Assembly (NCBI GenBank): GCA_905478925.1 | Contig: CAJQKQ010000073.1 | Coordinates: forward strand, 1-64,000 | Length of the DNA stretch: 64,000 bases | Origin: an uncultured Verrucomicrobiales bacterium | Lineage (GTDB): Bacteria; Verrucomicrobiota; Verrucomicrobiia; Verrucomicrobiales; Akkermansiaceae | Direction of reading: 5' to 3' | Shown here: positions 11,167 through 23,865 of the stretch, piece by piece | How positions within the stretch are numbered: position 1 is the stretch's first letter | Layout of the letters: each line of letters starts with the position of its first letter | The notes under the pieces: generated by a model | Database searches by the model: none | What the model was told of the DNA's origin: nothing | The model's input: the letters and a program-made list of their open reading frames with translations, nothing else | Made by a program: the position numbers and the translations under genes

Positions 11167-12899
11167 CTATCTACCAGATCCCCATTGCTCCATGGCAGGA
11201 TTGTATGGGAATTCAAAGTCCAAGAAATCGTTAGGATCAAACGGGAGATCCTTGGCGTTGACTCTTGGCTTTGATGCGCTTTGCACTGCAGGACGTGGGT
11301 TTTCCAGTCCGGTGAGCGGCATGCCCCGTGGGTGCTTTTTGTTGGGGTATTTTTGAAGCCACAGGTTGTGACGGGCTACCATCACATCAAACATCGTCTT
11401 GGTGGTGAATCCGGGAAGCATTTTGCCCATGACTTCGCGGGGGTCGTTGTAGAGGTCATAGAATGCAGCTCCACTGAGTCCTGGAAGTTCACCGACCCAG
11501 TGACGCTTGAAGCGACCTTTGACGGTGGCAGCAAGGATATCACCGGTGTAGATGTAGGCGTAATCGCGGCGACTAAAGGTGTCTCCATTGAGCAGGAGAG
11601 AAGTTTGGTCGATGCCGTCGATGATGCGGTCAGTTGGGATGTGCTGTTTTGCTCCTGCAAGGTTGGCGAAGGTGGTGTAGAGGTCGGTGATGTGCACAAT
11701 GTCTCCAACGACTTGACCGGGCGCGATGACACTCGGCCAGCGCACGAGGAAGGGGACACGAACGCCACCTTCTGTGAAGTCGCCTTTGCCTCCAGTGTGG
11801 AGAGTCTCGACCATGCCGTCAGGACCGTGGTGAGTCATCGGGCCGTTGTCGGCCATTAAGACAACCAGAGTGTTTTCTTCGACACCTTGGTCTTTCAGTT
11901 CCTTGAGAAGGACTGGGAGCCATTCGTCAAATCCAACAAGAAACTCATGCAGAATACTGGCAGATACGGTTTTTTTCTTGTCGCCCGGCTTGGTGCCCAG
12001 GAAGTGTGCCGCAATCGGCTGATAGCTGATGAAGAAGGGCTTCTTCGCTTTCGCGCTCTTACGAATAAACTCGATGGTGCGCTTTTGGCACTCACCTTCG
12101 AGAGCGTAGTAGTCATCTTCGTTCGGAGGGGTTCCCCACTCGCGAACTTTGCCACCCTTGGTGCCTTCCAAGGCCCAAACATAGCCGTCAGGACGCCATC
12201 CACGATCCATATCGTATGGATCTTTGGGGTAGAGTTCTGGGATGACCGATGTTGGGAACATTGGTCCGAGCTCACCACGAGGCACATACATGCTGGGAAC
12301 CTGATTGTAAGGAGTCCAAAGTGCCTCATCAAAGCCCATGTTGGTCATGTAGCTTTGTTCGATATCACCGAGGTGGCCTTTTCCGTAGAAGGCGGTCGCG
12401 TAACCAGCGGCGCTCATGACTTCACCGAGGGTGGTTTCCTCTTCGCTCATCCCGCCGTATTCGTAAGGGAAACTGACGGTGTACATGCCGTTTCGCACCG
12501 CGTGTCGACCAGTCATGAATGCGCACGACTTGGGGTGCAGGATGGCTCGGTATACATCCGGGCGTAATACTGACCCTCTGCCGCAAATTTATTGATGTTC
12601 GGAGTTCTGAATCCGCGGGGTGCCTGGATCTGAGGCACGCCAATTTTACCAACCGCGGTATCATCCCACATGATGTGGATGATGTTCGGTTTGCTGCCGT
12701 GTTTCTTCTCCAAGGCGGTGAGTTTCTCTTGGATTTCTTGATCTTGCTTGGCCCATGTCTCGCCGTGTTGGGCCTTCAGAATGTAGTATTCTGAGTCATG
12801 GATGATTGGTTTAGGCTCCGCCAAGGCACTCCCAGCGAAGGAAAGTGCTAGTAATGGAGCCGCGAGGGCTATCGTCGTTTTTTGTTTCATTCGGTTCAT
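11167..12899 (-). pseudogene. arylsulfatase (sulfatase S1 family), broken by a one-base frameshift
   Basis: Two frames together make a full sulfatase. The first (12899 to 12513) has a signal peptide, the metal-binding IMWDD and the formylglycine motif SCTPSRA, then runs into a stop. The second (12516 to 11167) continues with MTGRHAVRNGM, GYATAFYGKGHLG and MADNGPMTHHG. Comparison with the sulfatase at 27089 (SCTPTRCAFMTGRQ) shows that one base is missing between GCG and CATTCATG, directly after the motif. The Cys that would become formylglycine is intact. A real frameshift mutation, a sequencing error, or slippage are all possible; no homopolymer is present, which argues against slippage. The rest of both halves is well conserved, so the break is recent. 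Confidence 0.85.
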
Positions 12900-13625: not shown

Positions 13626-14912
13626 TCAATCCTGGATCATGTGAACGTCACGTTGTGGAAACGGAATTGAGATTCCATCTTCGTCGAAGCGCATTTTGAT
13701 CTGCTTCGTCAGCTCCCACATGACCGTCCAATAGTCCTCGCTCTTTACCCAGGGACGGCACCCGAGATTCACTGATGAGTCACCGAGTTCCAAGACCTCC
13801 ACGGAGACAGTCGGCTCGTCCAAGGTCAAGGGATGTGTCTTGGCCATTTCTTCGAGCACCTTCATCGCTTTTGGAATATCGTCGCCGTAACCAATTCCGA
13901 ACACCATATCGACACGCCGAAGATCCTCGCCGGTGAAGTTGATGATCGTGTTTCCCCAGACACTCTTGTTGGGAATGATGAGCAGCTTGTTGTCGAATGA
14001 AAGCAGAGTCGTCGACACCAAGCTCATTTCCTTTACCACGCCTTCATCACCTGCAATGGACACATAGTCCTTCACGTCAAAGGGGCGGTAAACCATGATC
14101 ATGAGACCGCTTGCAAAATTCGCGAGTGTTTCCTGGAGAGCAAAACCAATGATGAAACCACCGGCCCCCATCGCCGCCATCAACGGCCCCACACTCACTC
14201 CCAAAGTGGATAAGGCCATTAGTAGTCCGACCACAATCACCAGTCCTCCAGCCATTTTCTTGGCAAAGTTGGTCAGGAGTCCGGAGACGCTGCTGCGTTT
14301 CTCCAAGCTTTTGCCCACCGCCTTCCCGGCGTATCGGGAGATGACCCAGAAGATAATGAAGATCGTGATCGCCAGACCCACTCGCTTGAGCATCGTAATG
14401 CCTCCCTCCGGGCTGCGTAGCCAGCTATTGACCGCCGCAAGCATCGCTGCAGATCTGGTATCCTTATCACCACTCATCGACAGATCGGAGACCGCCGCAA
14501 TAAAGGAATCCGTCTCGGAAACATCGCCTCCCTTCGCCACTAACGCTTCCATCACCACCTTTGTTCTCGCAATGATGTCCGCTTCTTCAGTTCGTAGATC
14601 GATTAGCTTTTTGCTCAAATCCTCTGAGTCTTCTTTTTCCTCCCGATTGGTCTCAGAAAGAAGTATTTCAACCTCTCCCACCTCGATGATCTTCGCCTTA
14701 AGCGTGCCCACCCAGGTCTCAAGTTCCAGCTCCAGTTGATCGACTCCAAGCGGTCTCAGTTTTACACGAAGCGTCTCAATCGGCACTTCCGGCTCCGCCG
14801 ATGAAGAATCATCACTCGCTTCAGCCAGAAGGCCTCCTGCCAAGTAAACAAAAAATGTCAGGATGATTGCCATCACCGCATTGCTCTGCCATCGCATCCG
14901 TTCACTTATCAT
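13626..14912 (-). CDS. MscS-family mechanosensitive ion channel
   Basis: The 428-residue inner-membrane protein has an N-terminal hydrophobic segment (AVMAIILTFFVYLAGGLLAEA), a charged periplasmic region of about 130 residues with coiled-coil character, and then the MscS core. The pore-lining helix is rich in Gly and Ala (MAAMGAGGFIIGFALQETLAN), followed by the beta domain (FDVKDYVSIAGDEGVVKEMSL) and the C-terminal alpha-beta domain (VFGIGYGDDIPKAMKVLEE). Such channels open under membrane tension and release solutes in hypo-osmotic shock. The periplasmic extension makes it longer than E. coli MscS (286 residues). It lies 105 bp downstream of the DUF389 gene and reads the same way, as the last member of a membrane-stress cluster. 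Confidence 0.92.
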   Translation of the reverse strand: MISERMRWQSNAVMAIILTFFVYLAGGLLAEASDDSSSAEPEVPIETLRVKLRPLGVDQLELELETWVGTLKAKIIEVGEVEILLSETNREEKEDSEDLSKKLIDLRTEEADIIARTKVVMEALVAKGGDVSETDSFIAAVSDLSMSGDKDTRSAAMLAAVNSWLRSPEGGITMLKRVGLAITIFIIFWVISRYAGKAVGKSLEKRSSVSGLLTNFAKKMAGGLVIVVGLLMALSTLGVSVGPLMAAMGAGGFIIGFALQETLANFASGLMIMVYRPFDVKDYVSIAGDEGVVKEMSLVSTTLLSFDNKLLIIPNKSVWGNTIINFTGEDLRRVDMVFGIGYGDDIPKAMKVLEEMAKTHPLTLDEPTVSVEVLELGDSSVNLGCRPWVKSEDYWTVMWELTKQIKMRFDEDGISIPFPQRDVHMIQD

Positions 14913-15017: not shown

Positions 15018-16118
15018 TTACTCGTTGATGACCGGCTCGCTTTTCTCTCCGTCGTTACCAATCGCGTCCTCAAGATCATCGACACTCCCTTGCTGCACGA
15101 TATTGAATTTCACCGTCAGGTCGTTCGAAATTCCACGATCAATCATCTCATCGAGCTCAGCTATCAGCTTTCCGGGAACAGGACGCGATGCGCTGAGGAC
15201 AATGACCACATCTTCCGGTCGCTTGGAACTGGCTCTCACTCCCGTCAGGAAGTCGATTCCTTCCTCACGATCGAGCCGATTGTGGAGCTTGAACCACATC
15301 TCTTCCGAGAGGGTGAAATTCTCCGGCTTTGCCTGCCCCTGCCTCAATTGGTCACTCAGGCGGTATGCCAAGGGTGCAGTCATCAGAATCAGGGCGGCAC
15401 CCATTCCGAGCATGATCCGCTTCATCGTTAGCTTGGCGCCGAGCCGACTCTCCGGCGTTGCGATCCCATGGAGGCGGAAGACCATTGCGCTTCCAAGAGT
15501 GATCGCGACCATGTTGGTGGAGAAAAGCAGCATCGCTCCCATCGAGACCAGCCAGTCTCCGCTACCGAGGGCGATTCCAGACGCTGCCAGAGGAGGAACC
15601 AGTGCCACCGAAATCGCCACTCCGGGCAAAGCGCCGGAAAGTTTCGGCCGCGCAACCGCATAGCCAGCGGCAACGCCTGCGAAGAAAGCAATCGCCAGAT
15701 CCAAGAGATTTGGAGAGCCCCGTAAACTGACCTGCATCGTGAGTTCCTGGTCAGGCGTCAACCAACGTAGCAGTACCCCGAGAATCAAGCTCATCGCGGT
15801 ACCCATCAGGATGGCTCGCAGGGCTTGTCCGAGCAGCTTGTGGTTGCCATGAACCAAGGCCAGCCCGCCACCAATCAAAGGGGTCATCATCGGCGCCACC
15901 AGCATCGCTCCGATAATCACCGCCACTGAATCTTGAAGAAGTCCCAGACCGGCGATAATCACGGAGCAGCCAAGCATCACCCCGAAGTTCATGCTCCAGC
16001 GCGAGTTCTCCGTAAGATTCTCGACAAGGATCAAGCGATCCTCCCGTTCCAAAGATGGGAACAATGTCAATCGATGTTCCTTGGCCTTTGCCCACTGCCT
16101 CTTGAATCTCGAATGCAT
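15018..16118 (-). CDS. DUF389 (TIGR00341-type) membrane protein
   Basis: A 366-residue membrane protein with the DUF389 signature: [19 protein letters not shown], then [20 protein letters not shown] and [20 protein letters not shown]. Six to eight membrane helices are visible up to about residue 265, followed by a soluble C-terminal domain of about 90 residues ([19 protein letters not shown]). The biochemical role of DUF389 proteins is not established. Here it sits between a phospholipase D-like gene (60 bp upstream) and MscS, which suggests a part in membrane or osmotic stress. The start at 16118 fits the soluble N-terminal region before the first helix. Confidence 0.88.
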
Positions 16119-16177: not shown

Positions 16178-17710
16178 TCATATCTGGCTGCCGATCGGAA
16201 GCAGGCCAGCGAACCAGCCAAGAATCCGTTGAGACCAAGCCGCCGGGGGTGGCCGACGACGAATTTGCTCTCGAGATTTCCATTCGATTTTCCCTTTGGT
16301 GTCGCGACTCACTCGCCATGAGTTTTGTTCGTTGCCAAGGAGGTCTAGAAACTTCCCGAGCTCGCCTGCCAGCTGGGGTGAGGTGATCATCAGTCCGCTC
16401 TCGGTATTGATGTCCATTGCTCTGGGATCGAGATTGAGCGAACCGATGAAGCACTTGTTGCGGTCTCCCACCACAGCCTTGAGGTGAAGTGTGACGCGTT
16501 TGCTCCTCACCGCCCCGACATCCGCCAACGCTCGGACTTCTTCCGACGGGTCAGCGCGGAACTCGCTCAACACACTTCCCCCATCCACAATTGCCTTTCG
16601 GTGCTTGCGGTAATGTCCATCGACAACCGCTTGGTTGTTGGCTGCCAGCGAAGGAACCAGTACCTGGATTCGCATTCCTTGCTTCGTTAATTTGGCTAGA
16701 TTCTCCAATCCCTTCTTGGTTGGAATCAAATAAGGGGAAGATATCTGGATCTCACCACTCCGATCCGCCGTCATTTGCCGCAAGTTGGTCATGACTTCAC
16801 GATCGTCGGATTCCGGATCTGGATCGTCCTGCACGAAGCGAGCACGACCTCGTACCATTTCCTGCTTCAGCCCGGCCAGCTCCAGGCTCCAGTCATAATG
16901 CTCAATCGGATAGCCTTTGAGTTTTCCATTCCGCTCTCTCTCCAATGTTTGCCTGAAACCGTTGCGGGCTTCCGCGACCTTTTCCGGGACGTTCTTTCTC
17001 GATAAATACTCACCGGGATATGCAGCAGGGTCATTCCAGAATTCGTCGAATCCATCCGATACCTCGGCCACCACGGGGCCGGACGTAAGAACATCGAGGT
17101 CGATGAAATTGTATTCTTCATCCATTCCGTAGTAGTGATCCCCGATATTCCGCCCGCCCACAATTGTCATACATCGATCAGCGGTGAAGGTCTTGTTGTG
17201 CATCCGCCGATTCAGAGTCGAGAAATTCGCCAACATCTCTGTCATTGACCCCAAGCCGCGAATTCTACCTGGGTTGAAAATCCGAATTTCGAAATTTGGA
17301 TGATTCCGACAAAGTGTCGCTAGTCGGGCACTATCTGAATTGAGGAGAAAATCATCGACCAGAATCCTCACCCTTACCCCCCGATCGGCTGCCTGAATTG
17401 TACGCTCGAAAAGAAGCTCGCTGGATGCGCCGCCATGCCACAGGTAAAGCTGGATATCGAGCGATGATTGGGCGGAGTCGATCAATGCCAGGCGCCATTT
17501 CAATGCCTCCCCAGCATCCTCTAGCAGAAGGAAGGAGGAATCACCCTTCGCCCTGCCCTGGGCAAGACTGCGGCTGGCTTTCTGTAAGGATCCTGTCTCG
17601 GGAGCCGGCAACGCCATGGATACTGGTTTGTCAGTAATTTTTGGCAGGATGTTACAGCTGCATAGGAATATGCAGGAAAGTGCGGCGAATCCTTTGAGAA
17701 CTCCAATCAT
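16178..17710 (-). CDS. phospholipase D / cardiolipin synthase-like lipoprotein
   Basis: A 510-residue lipoprotein (signal ending IFLCSCN) of the PLD superfamily. Both HKD motifs are present: His171-Lys173-Asp178 in MHNKTFTADR and His409-Lys411-Asp416 in LHLKAVVGDR, each followed by the usual GGRNIGD and GSLNLDPR segments. The two-motif plan with LDIQLYLWHGG near the first domain is that of ClsC/YmdC-type phosphatidyltransferases that make cardiolipin, though an extracytoplasmic phospholipase or nuclease is also possible. The lipid anchor places it on the outer leaflet side. It is the first of three closely spaced genes (with DUF389 and MscS), about 114 bp after the pentameric channel gene. 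Confidence 0.88.
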   Translation of the reverse strand: MIGVLKGFAALSCIFLCSCNILPKITDKPVSMALPAPETGSLQKASRSLAQGRAKGDSSFLLLEDAGEALKWRLALIDSAQSSLDIQLYLWHGGASSELLFERTIQAADRGVRVRILVDDFLLNSDSARLATLCRNHPNFEIRIFNPGRIRGLGSMTEMLANFSTLNRRMHNKTFTADRCMTIVGGRNIGDHYYGMDEEYNFIDLDVLTSGPVVAEVSDGFDEFWNDPAAYPGEYLSRKNVPEKVAEARNGFRQTLERERNGKLKGYPIEHYDWSLELAGLKQEMVRGRARFVQDDPDPESDDREVMTNLRQMTADRSGEIQISSPYLIPTKKGLENLAKLTKQGMRIQVLVPSLAANNQAVVDGHYRKHRKAIVDGGSVLSEFRADPSEEVRALADVGAVRSKRVTLHLKAVVGDRNKCFIGSLNLDPRAMDINTESGLMITSPQLAGELGKFLDLLGNEQNSWRVSRDTKGKIEWKSREQIRRRPPPAAWSQRILGWFAGLLPIGSQI

Positions 17711-17823: not shown

Positions 17824-18855
17824 TCAATGCCATAGGTAGGCATAGAATCCGCCAACAGTCAGTAATGCGGGAAACAGTAGCCGGCATACCCGATCCAGCC
17901 AGCGAGCGGTCTCGACCTTGCCCTGCTGTGCGAGACCGGTGGTGATCACAACTTCGATCATCGCCAGAAATACGAGAATCGTTCCGCAGAAAACGAACAC
18001 GTCGAGCCGGGTGAGGTAGGATATTTCGGGGAGTCTCGAACTTAGCGCTACATGGTAGGCGATCATCGTCAGAAACGAGGTCACCGCCACGCCGAGTTGA
18101 CTGCCTCCCTCGGAAGGATTCAGCCAGAAAACTACCCACGACAGCAGAACGATCATCAGCAGGGGGGCGACGACTTTCATCATGTAGTGGTTCGACAAGC
18201 GCTCGGCTGTGAAGCTCAGCGTGAACGAAGGAATACTCCCTACTGTGGGAATGATCATTGGCTCCGAACTCGTATCGTGCCCCACGATCTTCCAGTCGGC
18301 TACGGAGTAGTTCTCGGTAATGAAACTATCGAATTCAGGGTCTTGAATCAGGCTGATCTCATTCACCTCATCTGAACCTGTATACACCACCTGGATACCA
18401 AAAGTTTGGGTGTCGAAGGGGAAATCATGAAGATTCATTGGCTGGGAAAAATCTCCCCACGATTGCTGGCGGTAGGTGGTTTCCCCTTCAGGGGAAATCG
18501 TCACGAACTCTCCTAGGGAGGACCAGAGTCTTTGCCGGTTAACGAAAAGAAGGTTGGGATGCCAGACCTCGCTCAAGAGCTTCTTGATTTCCCCGTCTCC
18601 TCCATGCGCAAGACGCGGGTCCGACCACCGAAACCGCGTGAAAACATTGATTGTGAAATTCTGACTCTCATCACTGATTTCATCGACATCGAGCACGCCG
18701 ATTATACAATGAATCTCGGTGGCGCCTCCACCTTGCGGAATCGGCCTCTTAAATTCACTGGCTCCAACTGTGGCAATGGAAAGCAGAAAGCCAACGAGCA
18801 GCTTCACCATCAGCCTAACGATTTGAGACCCCGACACCTCCATGGCTCCCATCAT
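17824..18855 (-). CDS. prokaryotic pentameric ligand-gated ion channel (Cys-loop receptor homologue, GLIC/ELIC-like)
   Basis: The 343-residue protein has the full plan of a bacterial pLGIC. A signal peptide ends near VGASE (residue 34). The extracellular beta-sandwich (35-222) contains FTINVFTRFRWSDPRL and the Pro-loop LHDFPFDTQTFGI, without the two cysteines of animal receptors, as expected for bacteria. Four membrane helices follow: M1 about 225-245, M2 252-271 (AVTSFLTMIAYHVALSSRLP), M3 282-303 and M4 323-342. Aligned by eye to GLIC, the Glu that forms the cation-selectivity ring just before M2 appears to be Gly, so ion selectivity is open. The ligand is unknown. The first three ATGs (18855, 18852, 18843) and a fourth at residue 16 are possible starts. 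It is 43 bp downstream of a K+-channel-like gene. Confidence 0.9.
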   Translation of the reverse strand: MMGAMEVSGSQIVRLMVKLLVGFLLSIATVGASEFKRPIPQGGGATEIHCIIGVLDVDEISDESQNFTINVFTRFRWSDPRLAHGGDGEIKKLLSEVWHPNLLFVNRQRLWSSLGEFVTISPEGETTYRQQSWGDFSQPMNLHDFPFDTQTFGIQVVYTGSDEVNEISLIQDPEFDSFITENYSVADWKIVGHDTSSEPMIIPTVGSIPSFTLSFTAERLSNHYMMKVVAPLLMIVLLSWVVFWLNPSEGGSQLGVAVTSFLTMIAYHVALSSRLPEISYLTRLDVFVFCGTILVFLAMIEVVITTGLAQQGKVETARWLDRVCRLLFPALLTVGGFYAYLWH

Positions 18856-18898
18856 AACGGGAACAGGAGGTCAGGCAAGTACTTCAAAACCGCAGCCA

Positions 18899-19390
18899 TC
18901 ATTCGTCGCGGTCTGAGTCCATGGACTCACGCAGATGGATATGAGTCAACTTTCCTAACACGGAGAACAGCAAAGCGGCCGAGACCCCAAACATCATCAC
19001 TCCGACCGCAGCCTCGAGCCCGCCCAAGAGGCGCCATTTTTCACTCATCACGATGTCTCCGTAGCCTAGCGCGGCATAGTTCACCGACGAGTGATAGAAT
19101 GCCGTGTGCATGTCACTGAACTCGCCGCACCTGATAAAGCCCACGGCCCATACCGCCATTTGCAACAGATGCCCAACCAGCAAGAGGATGAGAATCACCC
19201 CCATCGCCCACAGGTCGTGATAAAATCCTCTGGCGCTCGAGCGTCGGCGGATCTCCCACGCGAAGAATCGGACACTCAAGCCGACCATCGTGAGTTCAAT
19301 CAGTAGATTGAAGATAATCAGAGCGGTAATCAGGAACAAAAGAATCAAAGCAAGCGAATCATCGCAGAATCCGCTGGGTTTGAAAAGCAA
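18899..19390 (-). CDS. two-TM-pore potassium channel-like protein
   Basis: A 163-residue membrane protein with an ion-channel (Ion_trans_2) pore. TM segments lie about 12-38, 61-86 and 122-146. The pore loop between the last two reads HSSVNYAALGYGDI, with a K+-filter-like LGYGD at 108-112, although the usual Thr before it is Ala. A cytosolic regulatory domain such as RCK is absent; only a short acidic tail remains (RESMDSDRDE). It precedes the pentameric channel gene by 43 bp on the same strand, so the two channels are probably co-expressed. Whether it conducts K+ is inferred from the filter only. Confidence 0.75.
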   Translation of the reverse strand: MLFKPSGFCDDSLALILLFLITALIIFNLLIELTMVGLSVRFFAWEIRRRSSARGFYHDLWAMGVILILLLVGHLLQMAVWAVGFIRCGEFSDMHTAFYHSSVNYAALGYGDIVMSEKWRLLGGLEAAVGVMMFGVSAALLFSVLGKLTHIHLRESMDSDRDE

Positions 19391-19423: not shown

Positions 19424-20116
19424 CTACGGATTCTTCTCGTATTTCCGGACCTCTGCACCCGAAATCGTGTAGCTGGTATTGATGTTCGAAGTGCCATCCA
19501 CCAGATAGAGGCTTTTGGTTACCTCCTTGAGCTTCATCACACCTGTCACCGTTACAGCCTCGAACATTCCCTTCGTCGAAAAGGGCGATTTTGCAGTGAT
19601 ATGCACGATCTGATTCGGCGGCGGGGGAGGTGTGTGGATGCAGGCGCCCACCCAGGGCACCAGTAGGAATTCCGTTACCTTTTTCCCTTCATACTCAAGC
19701 GGTAGCACAAAACCAGGAATGGAAATTAGCTGATTGTCCAATTCCTTAACCGTCGCATTCGCCTTCTTCTTGCGCAGCTCGGTAATCTCATGTCGTTTGG
19801 CAAACAGGCCATCCACATCAACTCCCTGCTTCCGGAGTTTGGCATCCGCGTCGCCGGCTTCCTTCCGCATGCCATCTGTAACCCGGCTTCCTCCATCCCG
19901 TTTCTCAAGTGACTGCACCCTTGCGATGATCCCCAGATCCATCAGTTGCTCCTCACTCAGCTCCGCGAACGGATCCTCAAATTCAAACTCCTCCTTGAGA
20001 TCATCCCAGCCCACTTGCTGCGGCTTGGCATCTTCCGCCAAGCATACGATCACCATCGTCGCTCCCGCCAGCACTCCATAGAGAAGGCCGTTCGTTCGAT
20101 TCATAAATTCATTCAT
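19424..20116 (-). CDS. DUF3299 protein, partner of the ABC transporter
   Basis: The protein (230 residues from ATG 20116) starts with a membrane or signal segment (GLLYGVLAGATMVIVCLAE), then a charged linker, and ends in a DUF3299 domain with its clear signature: ISIPGFVLPLE, VTEFLLVPWVGACIHTPPPP and NQIVHI. The start was chosen because ATG 20116 overlaps the permease stop codon as ATGA, which implies translational coupling. In Pseudomonas aeruginosa the DUF3299 protein PA4066 is encoded with an ABC ATPase and permease (PA4064-PA4065) in a zinc-responsive operon, and the gene order here is the same. A periplasmic accessory function in metal transport is therefore likely but unproven. Confidence 0.85.
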   Translation of the reverse strand: MNEFMNRTNGLLYGVLAGATMVIVCLAEDAKPQQVGWDDLKEEFEFEDPFAELSEEQLMDLGIIARVQSLEKRDGGSRVTDGMRKEAGDADAKLRKQGVDVDGLFAKRHEITELRKKKANATVKELDNQLISIPGFVLPLEYEGKKVTEFLLVPWVGACIHTPPPPPNQIVHITAKSPFSTKGMFEAVTVTGVMKLKEVTKSLYLVDGTSNINTSYTISGAEVRKYEKNP

Positions 20117-21447
20117 ACTCTTACTGTTAAACCATCGGATAATGAACGTCGGTAACAAAGCCAGGCTGGAACCAATCCCACCAACAGTCCGACGAGCATC
20201 ACCAGCCCTATCAATATCAGTTCCCAGGAGGAAAGCATTCCAAAACCGAGCTGCAGACCGGTTTTCTCTAGGACAACTGGCCGGGCAACGAGGAGCATGC
20301 CGTAGAGCAGCGCGATTCCCGCTGCAATGGAAGCGGTCGTTAGCAAGATAGACTCAACGACAATCAACGAAAGAATGTGAACCGGTCGCGCACCAACCGA
20401 GCGCAGGATCGCCATTTCCCGGCGCCGTTCGTTCAGACTGGCAAGCAGGGAGCTCAGCATCCCAGCTAGCGATACACCCAATACAAACAACGAAATCACC
20501 AACAAGGTGGTCTCAACAACCCCAACCACTTGCCACAATTCCTGCAACGCAACTCCCGGCATGACGGCACTGAGAGCCTCGCCTTTGTAAGTATTGATCG
20601 AGCGTTGAAGAAAAACCGCGTCCACTCGTGAGTGCATACCGACGAGAAACGCCGTGATCGTCTCGGGCTCCAGAGAGTTCGGATCCTCTCCGGCGAGAGT
20701 CGACTCGATCGCCGCCAGTCGATCCATACCGGTTTCATGATCGCCGTGATCATGAGCCGGGTGATTGCAATTCGAATGATCATGGCCGTCGTGATCACCG
20801 GAACCATCCCAGCCAACATGAACCGCTTCAATACCTTCCAAGGACACATGCACTGCGCGATCTACCGGAGTTCCAGTCGCTTTGAGAACACCAACCACAC
20901 GAAACGGCTTGTCCGTATGCTCTACAAAACTCACATCGCCTGATCCGTGTGCCAATACGATCTCATCACTGATCTGGTAACCCAGCTTGCGTGCGACCTC
21001 TGCCCCAAGCACCGCATCGTAGGTATCCGCGAAGCGAACACCCTCAGCCATCTCGAGCGCTTGTTTCCTCCCATACCTGTAATGATCGAAATATTCAGCA
21101 CTCGTCCCCAGCACCCGGTAGCCCTTGTGCGAATCCCCAAGGCTCAACGGAATCGTCCAGGCAACTTGAGGATTCTTCGAAATCTTTTCATACGTCTCCC
21201 ACGAAATGTTCTGCGTCGCATTCCCGATCCGGAACACACTTGAAAGCAGCAGGGAGACATCACCGGTGCGCGCGCCGACGATCAGATCCGTTCCCGAGAT
21301 CGTATTCGTAAAGCCTTCTCGCGCCTCACTCCGCATCCGTTCCACGCCCAGCAGAAGCGCCACCCCGAGCGAAAGTGATATCACCGTCAGGGCCACGGTG
21401 AACCCACGGTGCCTGATCGATTTCCAGCTCAAGCCCAGTGTCATCAT
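20113..21447 (-). CDS. FtsX/MacB-type ABC transporter permease with His-rich loop
   Basis: The 444-residue permease has one N-terminal helix (FTVALTVISLSLGVALLLGV), a large periplasmic domain and three C-terminal helices carrying the FtsX-type signature ASLNERRREMAILRSVGA. Within the periplasmic domain, residues 213-240 hold seven histidines plus aspartates and a cysteine (GDHDGHDHSNCNHP and AHDHGDHETG), a likely Zn or other transition-metal binding loop. The gene overlaps the ATPase gene upstream (ATGA) and the DUF3299 gene downstream (ATGA). Such mechanotransmission-type permeases usually do not move the substrate through the membrane themselves but drive periplasmic processes. The His loop supports a metal-related role. 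Confidence 0.88.
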   Translation of the reverse strand: MMTLGLSWKSIRHRGFTVALTVISLSLGVALLLGVERMRSEAREGFTNTISGTDLIVGARTGDVSLLLSSVFRIGNATQNISWETYEKISKNPQVAWTIPLSLGDSHKGYRVLGTSAEYFDHYRYGRKQALEMAEGVRFADTYDAVLGAEVARKLGYQISDEIVLAHGSGDVSFVEHTDKPFRVVGVLKATGTPVDRAVHVSLEGIEAVHVGWDGSGDHDGHDHSNCNHPAHDHGDHETGMDRLAAIESTLAGEDPNSLEPETITAFLVGMHSRVDAVFLQRSINTYKGEALSAVMPGVALQELWQVVGVVETTLLVISLFVLGVSLAGMLSSLLASLNERRREMAILRSVGARPVHILSLIVVESILLTTASIAAGIALLYGMLLVARPVVLEKTGLQLGFGMLSSWELILIGLVMLVGLLVGLVPAWLCYRRSLSDGLTVRV

Positions 21448-22142
21448 GGATGTCCTCCTTCCAAGCGAAAGCTTTGATCAAACAACCCCGCCAGGCGCGA
21501 ATCATGACTCACGAAGACCAGGGTCGATCCTGCCGTCTTGCATTCATCAAAGAGCAGTTTTACGAATCCCTCGCTGTGACCCTCGTCCAGGGCGGATGTC
21601 GGTTCATCGGCCAGGATTAGTTCCGGACTGCCGATCAGCGCCCGCGCCGCCGCAACCCGCTGTTGCTGACCGACACTGAGCTTGGTGACCTTTCTCTCCG
21701 CCAGTTTCCCCATCCCGAGATGTTCCAGCAAGCGCCTCGCCTCCTTGTCGGGATCAGAAACTCGCTTTCTGCGACGTTTCGAAAACCTCAGAGGGAGTGT
21801 CACGTTCTCGATCACCGACAAGTAGGGGATCAGATTGAACATCTGAAAGATGTAGCCGATGTGATCCGCGCGAAACCGATCCCGCTCCGCTCCGCCCATG
21901 TCGTCAAACCGTTTCCCGAGAACCGTCACCCCGCCTTTTTGCGGAGCCAGTACTCCTGACAACAAACCTAATAGGGTGCTCTTGCCACTCCCACTGGCTC
22001 CTTCGATGAACCACCGATCTCCCGACCTTACCTGCAGATCATTGATCACCAAATCAGGCGACATCACGTCACTCCATGCGTAGCGTAGCGAATCGAGAAC
22101 GATTGCTGGCACTGCGTCGACGTTGGATGATGGTTCGTTCAT
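21444..22142 (-). CDS. ABC transporter ATP-binding protein (LolD/MacB-type)
   Basis: The protein of 232 residues (start MNEPSSN at 22142) is an ABC ATPase of the LolD/FtsE/MacB branch. The Walker A is GASGSGKST, the Q-loop lies in YIFQMFNLIPYLS, the signature is LSVGQQQRVA, and Walker B with its glutamate is LILADEP. It powers the permease whose start codon overlaps its stop as ATGA. An in-frame ATG at 22211 exists, but its 23 extra residues are not expected for the family. No Zur-box-like palindrome was visible by eye in the upstream gap. Confidence 0.88.
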   Translation of the reverse strand: MNEPSSNVDAVPAIVLDSLRYAWSDVMSPDLVINDLQVRSGDRWFIEGASGSGKSTLLGLLSGVLAPQKGGVTVLGKRFDDMGGAERDRFRADHIGYIFQMFNLIPYLSVIENVTLPLRFSKRRRKRVSDPDKEARRLLEHLGMGKLAERKVTKLSVGQQQRVAAARALIGSPELILADEPTSALDEGHSEGFVKLLFDECKTAGSTLVFVSHDSRLAGLFDQSFRLEGGHP

Positions 22143-22329
22143 CGTTAAGAGTTGATTATGGAGTAGGGGATCCGTTGCTGCAAGAGCCGGTAACGACCCG
22201 GGAATGCTCATTTGATGCCATTGCCCGGCTCAATTGTTCCCCCTGTCCGCTCGACCGAGAAACCGCCGCCCCCAACCAACAAGGCATGCCTGTGCAACTC
22301 CATTCCAAACAAGTAAGAAGCTCGCCAAC

Positions 22330-22554: not shown

Positions 22555-23865
22555 TCAACCTTTCGGGGCGGCGCTTACCATGTAGACCACGTCATCGCCA
22601 CTGTAAAAAGGCTTGTACCAAGTGTCGGAATAGACGAAGTAGGTGTCGGTTCCGACTTTCTTTTCCTCGGCATCCTCGGGAAGCATCGTCACGGTGGCTC
22701 CTATGGGTGGCTCGACGACCCGGAAGTTTTCCTCGGGATACTCATCCGGGAGCTCTCCGGGTTCGACGTCCGCGTAGGCTTCGTCCTCTGGGTATTCAAG
22801 GGCGTCCTTTCGGTCTGCGTCAGAGATGTTCTTGGCGGCCTCGGCAGCTGCCTGTTGTTCCGCCAAACGCTGTTCCTCGGTCGGTGCCGAGGCGGGATCC
22901 TCAGTTTCTTCGTAGAAGGATCCGTTCGCGTAGTAATAGTTATTGGTGACGTTGTTGCTATCGGTGGTGGTGTTGGAAGCCGGTTGCTGCACGGTGACCA
23001 TTTCATAAGTTGGTGGAGGTGAGGAAACCACCACTCCGGCGGGAGCAGCAACAACAACATAGGTGGATCCATTGCGCTGATAGTAGGCGCCATCCGCGTA
23101 GTAATAGGTGACTCCACCATAGTAGACTGTCGTGTAGACGCGCGGTTGGGAGACGTAATGGACGCCAAGAGCCAGGGCACCACCAATGGCACGCCACTTC
23201 CAATAGTCATTCCAGTGATCATACCGGTTGTGGTAGTAGTTGTGATGGCTGTGGTGGACATGTCTGCCCTTCCACGCGGTGTGTCGGCTGCCGGTTCGAT
23301 AGCCAGCACGGTAGGCATTGCGGTTGCTTGGGGTGCCGGGTCTGGTCGTAGGATTACCGGGGCGCCTCGCAGGATTACCGGGACGTGTGGTAGGATTACC
23401 GGGGCGTGTCGTTGGATTACCAGGGCGTGTCGTTGGATTGCCGGGGCGCGACGTAGGATTGCCGGGGCGTGTCGTTGGATTGCCGGGACGCGTCGTTGGA
23501 TTGCCGGGGCGTGTTGTTGGATTGCTGGGGCGCGTCGTGGGGCGTTTCGCAGGAGTGCTGGGGCGCGTCGTGGGGCGTTTCGCAGGAGTACTGGGGCGCG
23601 TTGTGGGACGTTTCGCAGGAGTGCTGGGGCGCGTCGTAGGTCTACTGCTCGGACGCGAAGTCGTTCTTTTGGGAGCCGAGCGACTGGATTGCCGGACGCT
23701 TCCACCGCCACGACTGCTGGCTCCCGAAGAGCGGCCGCCGCCGCCTCCGCCGCCCCTTCGCGCCATGACATCCTCTGCGGTGAGGGCGAAGATGACACAT
23801 ATGGCGGTCAAACTGACACCGCCACGAAGGCGGAACGAAGTGAAAAAATGAATCAGTAATTTCAT
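22555..23865 (-). CDS. secreted repeat-rich protein with DUF6515-like domain
   Basis: A 436-residue exported protein of extreme composition. After a signal-like N-terminus come a Gly/Arg/Ser stretch (RRGGGGGGGRSSG), a basic proline-rich tandem-repeat region (residues 76-180; 11-residue units of PTTRPSTPAKR, then 7-residue units of PTTRPGN), a His/Tyr-rich segment (HVHHSHHNYYHNRYDHW), a short membrane or buried segment, and a domain with GVTYYYADGAYYQRNGSTY and VVVAAPAGVVVSSPP, which I associate with DUF6515. The C-terminus is acidic and ends in TYFVYSDTWYKPFYSGDDV, likely a second copy of the small beta motif. The basic repeats may span or bind the cell envelope or polyanions. Function is not known. 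Confidence 0.75.
   Translation of the reverse strand: MKLLIHFFTSFRLRGGVSLTAICVIFALTAEDVMARRGGGGGGGRSSGASSRGGGSVRQSSRSAPKRTTSRPSSRPTTRPSTPAKRPTTRPSTPAKRPTTRPSTPAKRPTTRPSNPTTRPGNPTTRPGNPTTRPGNPTSRPGNPTTRPGNPTTRPGNPTTRPGNPARRPGNPTTRPGTPSNRNAYRAGYRTGSRHTAWKGRHVHHSHHNYYHNRYDHWNDYWKWRAIGGALALGVHYVSQPRVYTTVYYGGVTYYYADGAYYQRNGSTYVVVAAPAGVVVSSPPPTYEMVTVQQPASNTTTDSNNVTNNYYYANGSFYEETEDPASAPTEEQRLAEQQAAAEAAKNISDADRKDALEYPEDEAYADVEPGELPDEYPEENFRVVEPPIGATVTMLPEDAEEKKVGTDTYFVYSDTWYKPFYSGDDVVYMVSAAPKG
23326..23640 (-). repeat. coding tandem repeats (33-bp and 21-bp units)
   Basis: Three 33-bp units (PTTRPSTPAKR) are followed by about ten 21-bp units (PTTRPGN and variants). The units are nearly identical in DNA, so unit number is likely to vary between strains by slippage or recombination. 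Confidence 0.9.

Follow-up and report, generated by a model that had tools for sequence, protein, structure and literature searches.

The window analyzed here, a stretch of 64,000 nucleotides from contig C73 of a 3.8-Mb Verrucomicrobiales genome (145 contigs, 94% complete), encodes a protein that is, with near certainty, a genuine member of the superfamily of pentameric ligand-gated ion channels (pLGICs, or Pro-loop receptors), to which the neurotransmitter-gated channels of animals also belong. This protein belongs to a clade from Verrucomicrobiota and Acidobacteriota that lacks the acidic residues found at the pore entrance of GLIC and ELIC, and the members of the clade most likely conduct anions or are poorly selective rather than being GLIC/ELIC-like cation channels. 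Acidic rings at the cytoplasmic mouth are reported for all known cation-selective pLGICs (PMC9897478); the motif alone, as has been cautioned, is not a general predictor of selectivity in prokaryotes (PMC4795631). The gene and its surroundings are listed in Table 1.

Table 1. Predicted genes and features around the pLGIC gene of the window
Feature	Coordinates	Strand	Basis or comment
ABC ATPase, LolD/YbbA-type, ZrgC-like	21444..22211	-	4-bp overlap with the permease gene
FtsX/MacB-type ABC permease, ZrgB-like	20113..21447	-	His-rich loop
DUF3299 protein, ZrgE-like	19424..20158	-	ends 33 bp before the K+-channel-like ORF
Ion_trans_2 K+-channel-like protein, 163 aa	18899..19390	-	PF07885, 35 bits; 43 bp upstream of the pLGIC gene
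pLGIC (Pro-loop receptor) subunit	17824..18855	-	343 aa; Pfam, PDB phmmer, Foldseek, alignment, tree
M1-M2 linker and M2 of the pLGIC, residues 243-272, FWLNPSEGGSQLGVAVTSFLTMIAYHVALS	18040..18129	-	alignment
PLD-superfamily lipoprotein, cardiolipin-synthase-like	16178..17710	-	two PLDc_2 stretches; Pfam/NCBIfam
DUF389 membrane protein	15018..16118	-	Pfam; syntenic in the nearest relative locus, 84% identity
MscS-type mechanosensitive channel, long N-terminal extension	13626..14912	-	Pfam; absent from the nearest relative locus

The predicted protein consists of a signal peptide, an ectodomain and the membrane helices M1-M4, with a short M3-M4 linker. Both pLGIC domains of Pfam are detected above their cut-offs (PF02931, 53 bits against 26; PF02932, 56 bits against 28.1), and a phmmer search of the PDB sequences retrieves a GLIC-GlyR chimera (E=1.8e-30), GlyR (about 1e-29), GABA-A receptors (about 1e-28) and GLIC (about 1e-24). 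A single-chain AlphaFold2 model of low confidence (pLDDT 51, pTM 0.31) has the strands in the expected order and four helices, and Foldseek searches with this low-confidence model lead to GlyR, GABA-A and GLIC (E about 1e-15, TM about 0.6); the model is poor because the underlying alignment held just seven sequences, namely the window protein and those of loci from one collection scan, and its use is limited to the fold class. In the sequence alignment, the Pro-loop LHDFPFDTQTF (P146, D148) and the pre-M1 arginine R219 match the F/YPxD motif and the pre-M1 Arg of GlyR, and the gating-core positions, these residues included, align with those of GlyR; no cysteines that could form a Cys-loop disulphide are present around the Pro-loop. 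The preliminary description, which had recognized a GLIC-like channel, is borne out by these searches and by the beta-rich ectodomain and four helices of the model, and its boundaries for the two adjacent ORFs are exact. The NCBIfam models of ligand-gated channels score far under their cut-offs, and therefore the pLGIC identity may escape automatic annotation. The genome contains a single pLGIC match; in a collection of plasmids, the sole match is a distant one (23.5% identity) from Legionella adelaidensis.

At the pore entrance, gapless alignment with GlyR places Gly at -2', Ser at -1' and Gln at 0', and Glu249 upstream at -4'. The acidic ring of the GLIC/ELIC type at -2' or -1' is absent from the window protein, and so is the basic residue at 0' (P-A-R or A-R), with Gln found instead. 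The glutamate of the cation ring had earlier been read as Gly, which was right in substance, and the alignment of M2 identifies a subunit of the GLIC/GlyR type without the cation-ring acid. The reference sequences were checked, the GlyR sequence having been taken from the PDB sequence matches; the GLIC sequence agrees with the GLIC chains among the PDB matches. The spacing between the M1 proline and position 0' is 23 residues in the window protein and in all sampled verrucomicrobial and acidobacterial relatives, the same as in GlyR, GABA-A beta3 and GluCl, compared to 22 in nAChR alpha7 and 5-HT3A and 21 in GLIC and ELIC. The window protein has Ser, not an acid, at -1' and a linker one residue longer than that of nAChR, both of which are anion-type characters. 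The value of linker length as an anion marker is weakened, however, because the linker is equally long in a second verrucomicrobial clade with Asp at -1', so that length alone is not diagnostic.

In the PMSF phylogenetic tree, the window protein is placed within a 24-member clade of Verrucomicrobiota and Acidobacteriota (support 99/96), the breadth of which is under-sampled beyond Verrucomicrobiota (in Acidobacteriota and Pseudomonadota). Positions -2' and -1' are free of acidic residues in all 24 members, the motifs from -2' to 0' being GSQ, GTQ, GPQ, STQ, ATQ, GPR, NPR and PPR. The second clade, with Asp at -1' in 12 of 12 sequences, is found on the side of the tree with GLIC and ELIC, which themselves have long branches and are not placed exactly. 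The subclades with Arg at 0' (GPR, NPR and PPR) mostly carry a net charge of +2 to +4 over the linker plus M2 and, judging by these residues, are candidate anion channels, better ones than the window protein. The latter has a net charge of -1 over the same segment and an ectodomain with a net charge of -17, more acidic than that of every reference; this very acidic ectodomain and the Glu at -4' argue against strict anion selectivity, so that, for the window protein, weak selectivity is as likely as anion selectivity. The proposition that all 24 members, the window protein included, are anion-selective bacterial pLGICs is rather doubtful; if it is true, bacteria would have their own parallel to the division of animal channels into anion and cation types, with the acid-less clade on one side and the Asp(-1') clade on the other.

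The highest score of the window protein is against GlyR (103.5 bits, with 61 for the TMD) and the score against nAChR is low (45.9 bits). The metazoan anion-selective receptors GlyR, GABA-A and GluCl resemble it in fold, linker length and the lack of an acid at -1'; the similarity to GlyR extends to 2' Gly, 6' Thr, 9' Leu, 10' Thr and 11' Met of M2, and that to GlyR and GluCl includes an Arg in loop D. Unlike these receptors, the window protein lacks the Cys-loop cysteines and the aromatic box of loops B and C, contains G-S-Q in place of P-A-R, and combines Glu at -4' with a highly acidic ectodomain. GLIC of Gloeobacter (about 90 bits) is likewise a Cys-less Pro-loop receptor with a short M3-M4 linker but has Glu at -2' and an M1-M2 linker that is two residues shorter. 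ELIC of Dickeya/Erwinia shares the general layout and differs in Glu at -1' (the selectivity filter E-1'), a linker of 21 and aromatic residues in loops B and C. DeCLIC of Desulfofustis belongs to the same bacterial family but possesses two acidic rings and an additional domain at its N-terminus (PMC9897478).

The ligand site also appears to differ from the amine-binding type. Comparison with GlyR reveals Phe72 and Arg74 in loop D and Arg129 in loop E, but loops B and C lack an aromatic box, the corresponding residues being T159 in loop B and P203, V205 and I208 in loop C (the alignment of loop C being uncertain). Arg129 is conserved in all seven sequences compared (the window protein and L002-L007), and Arg or Lys occupies position 74 in six of the seven. 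From these residues, an aromatic box of the amine type is unlikely and an anionic ligand is plausible; such a ligand could be, for example, a carboxylate, to judge by Phe72, Arg74 and Arg129, which lie on the complementary face.

The overall explanation that we favor, and to which we assign roughly an even chance, is that the window protein forms a ligand-gated pentamer of the acid-less clade that is anion-conducting or poorly selective. The subunit, with the secreted ectodomain and four helices evident from its family, fold class and gating-core residues, would assemble into a homopentamer in the inner membrane; a small solute binding to the periplasmic domain would open the channel. The clade either gave up the acidic ring for selectivity at -2'/-1' or was without one from the start. 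Opening might partially dissipate the membrane potential or release anions, speculatively in concert with MscS during osmotic change. Cation selectivity is the rule for characterized bacterial pLGICs, and the window protein could be another ordinary cation channel in which Glu249 stands in for the acidic ring of GLIC and ELIC as a result of two extra residues in the linker (a GG insertion). The acidic ectodomain would concentrate cations, and the sequence SEGGSQ is common to the window protein, L002, L003 and L026, with EGG found also in L005-L007. However, position -4' is not conserved over the 24-member clade, where Q, K, A, T and N occur besides Glu, whereas Asp at -1' is kept throughout the other clade, and we consider a cation channel of this kind possible but unlikely. 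The missing orthosteric aromatic residues would fit a sensor or pseudo-channel that signals through the pLGIC fold without ion flow, but the strong conservation in the clade of the M2 pattern (6' Thr, 9' Leu) and of the coupling residues makes this highly improbable.

Two further possibilities derive from the genomic context, in which the genes between 22211 and 13626 all share one orientation and are separated by short gaps; scans for promoters and terminators in this region gave counts comparable to those in shuffled sequences and no operon boundary. In the locus of the nearest relative (L002, 76% identity of the pLGIC), the order is FtsX-DUF3299-pLGIC-PLD-DUF389, with a gap of 12 bp between the DUF3299 and pLGIC genes, a PLD-like lipoprotein 78% identical to that of the window (itself closest to cardiolipin synthases), and no MscS gene. 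In that genome, another contig (L003) carries a C-terminal fragment of FtsX followed by a joined DUF3299-pLGIC reading frame and resembles a copy of the L002 locus that has partly degenerated. Because of these two layouts, FtsX-DUF3299-pLGIC-PLD represents the conserved context. The joined frame (L003, 6078-7175) is a natural in-frame fusion of the DUF3299 N-terminus, including the signal peptide, with the pLGIC ectodomain. By their sequences, the ATPase, the His-rich permease and the DUF3299 protein resemble components of a zinc ABC transporter of the Zrg type; in Vibrio parahaemolyticus, the zinc operon under Zur control includes DUF3299 as zrgE (PMC9817125). Together with the gene order kept in L002 and the L003 fusion, this could suggest that the pLGIC works with the upstream metal transporter, for instance, as a metal-sensing channel. 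Against such a link, the arrangement is absent from the other pLGIC neighborhoods examined, and a search of the genome for ZrgA (DUF2796) gave no match, a weak negative given that the control gave none either; on balance, we view it as improbable. The preliminary description had combined the pLGIC, K+-channel-like, PLD, DUF389 and MscS genes into a membrane-stress module. In a dedicated operon of this kind, a ligand-gated depolarization would be answered by efflux of K+ and through mechanosensitive channels. The co-directional genes and the recurrence of MscS described below agree with such an operon, but L002 lacks both the K+ channel and MscS, no K+ channel gene lies near the pLGIC in 19 other genomes, the MscS cases are partly from one genus or on opposite strands, and the promoter and terminator scans are at the level of chance, so that we regard this operon, too, as quite improbable.

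The K+-channel-like gene itself was correctly recognized, together with its LGYGD filter in which Thr is replaced by Ala: PF07885 exceeds its cut-off of 22.5 bits in a protein with one pore domain, and the selectivity filter reads NYAALGYGD. Relatives from this bacterial family contain VNFASLGYGD, VNYTTLGYGD, VNYSSLGYGD or TSYSTLGYGD, and because they have Ser or Thr at this position, the Ala is unusual even among them. Short bacterial Ion_trans_2 proteins with the TLGYGD filter likewise possess a single pore loop with LGYGD; the K+-channel-like protein differs in the Ala for Thr and is without a regulatory domain. Solved relatives are weak matches (KirBac3.1, E=0.0025). The ORF has a TTG start immediately after an in-frame TGA and is present in a single copy in the genome. 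The proposed functional link to the pLGIC fails on both synteny and co-occurrence and is rejected: the gene is absent from L002, no PF07885 gene is found within 10 kb of the pLGIC in any of 19 other pLGIC genomes (in G102, one lies just over 10 kb away), and only 2 of the 11 genomes with homologs, among 97 genomes of the family, carry a pLGIC, no more than expected by chance (p=0.36). This lack of co-occurrence in relatives is the observation that the preliminary description itself had named as contrary to the link. Hence the K+-channel-like gene appears to be an accidental neighbor, not a conserved partner of the pLGIC.

MscS is a somewhat better partner of the pLGIC than the K+-channel gene, although the association is suggestive only. 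In 20 genomes, 4 of 78 MscS genes (in G000, G032, G073 and G123) are located within 3 kb of a pLGIC gene compared to 0.15 expected (p=1.7e-5; three cases, p=4.8e-4, with the window dropped); these tests ignore shared ancestry. In addition, G032 and G073 belong to a single genus, and the MscS and pLGIC genes of G123 lie on opposite strands, separated by another gene. The long type of MscS and pLGIC are found together in 5 of 9 genomes (p=0.0007, or p=0.004 when the genome of the window is left out), and 46-51% relatives of the window MscS lie near the pLGIC genes of G032 and G073. In the acidobacterial locus L007, a 1134-residue gene of the MscK/MscM type is directly downstream of the pLGIC. 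Of the downstream partners suggested earlier, MscS thus receives weak support by its recurrence, whereas synteny is limited to the nearest relative for PLD together with DUF389 and to two others for PLD. In G032 (L020, 8047-11567), LpxR (a lipid A deacylase), pLGIC and MscS genes follow one another in the same direction.

A biological role is known for no pLGIC of unicellular organisms (PMC4795631). The existence of both selectivities in bacteria has been predicted from sequence by Tasneem et al. (PMC549065), and the acid-less clade provides concrete candidates for this prediction, the best of which are the GPR, NPR and PPR members and not the window protein. The characterized bacterial pLGICs covered by our reading of the literature (GLIC, ELIC and DeCLIC) are treated as cation-selective, and our literature search gave no case of a prokaryotic member of the superfamily for which anion conduction was demonstrated by experiment. 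A clade with a GlyR-like entrance beside the Asp(-1') group offers natural pairs for testing the evolution of charge selectivity, as well as a compact bacterial scaffold for structural work on anion channels.

Several additional features of these neighborhoods were observed. In loci of the Asp(-1') clade (L025, 7497-10093; L027, 1-2310; L079, 1671-5561), the pLGIC is coupled to an alpha/beta hydrolase of the PGAP1/lipase-like type (the two genes overlap by 4 bp in L025 and L027), and a beta-barrel-like gene is also nearby; in the acidobacterial L006, and probably L005, an alpha/beta hydrolase follows the pLGIC. In L074 (8190-11514), the gene immediately preceding that of the pLGIC encodes a Na+/H+ exchanger with TrkA-N and PTS EIIA domains, an arrangement that recalls the Na+/H+ symporter operon of Microbulbifer noted by Tasneem et al. 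(PMC549065). Sulfatase-type ORFs occur near the pLGIC in 14 of 38 neighborhoods, a raw count to which we give no weight. In the window (11167-12899, minus strand), a sulfatase-like gene seems to be divided between two ORFs that overlap by ATGA exactly within the active-site motif (CTPSRAHS / MTGRH); joining them by a -1 shift restores the normal length of the motif, and the arrangement could reflect a sequencing error, a frameshift or a split gene. The window also encodes a DUF6515 protein (22555-23865, minus strand) that contains an extended series of repeats of the TTRPGNP type.
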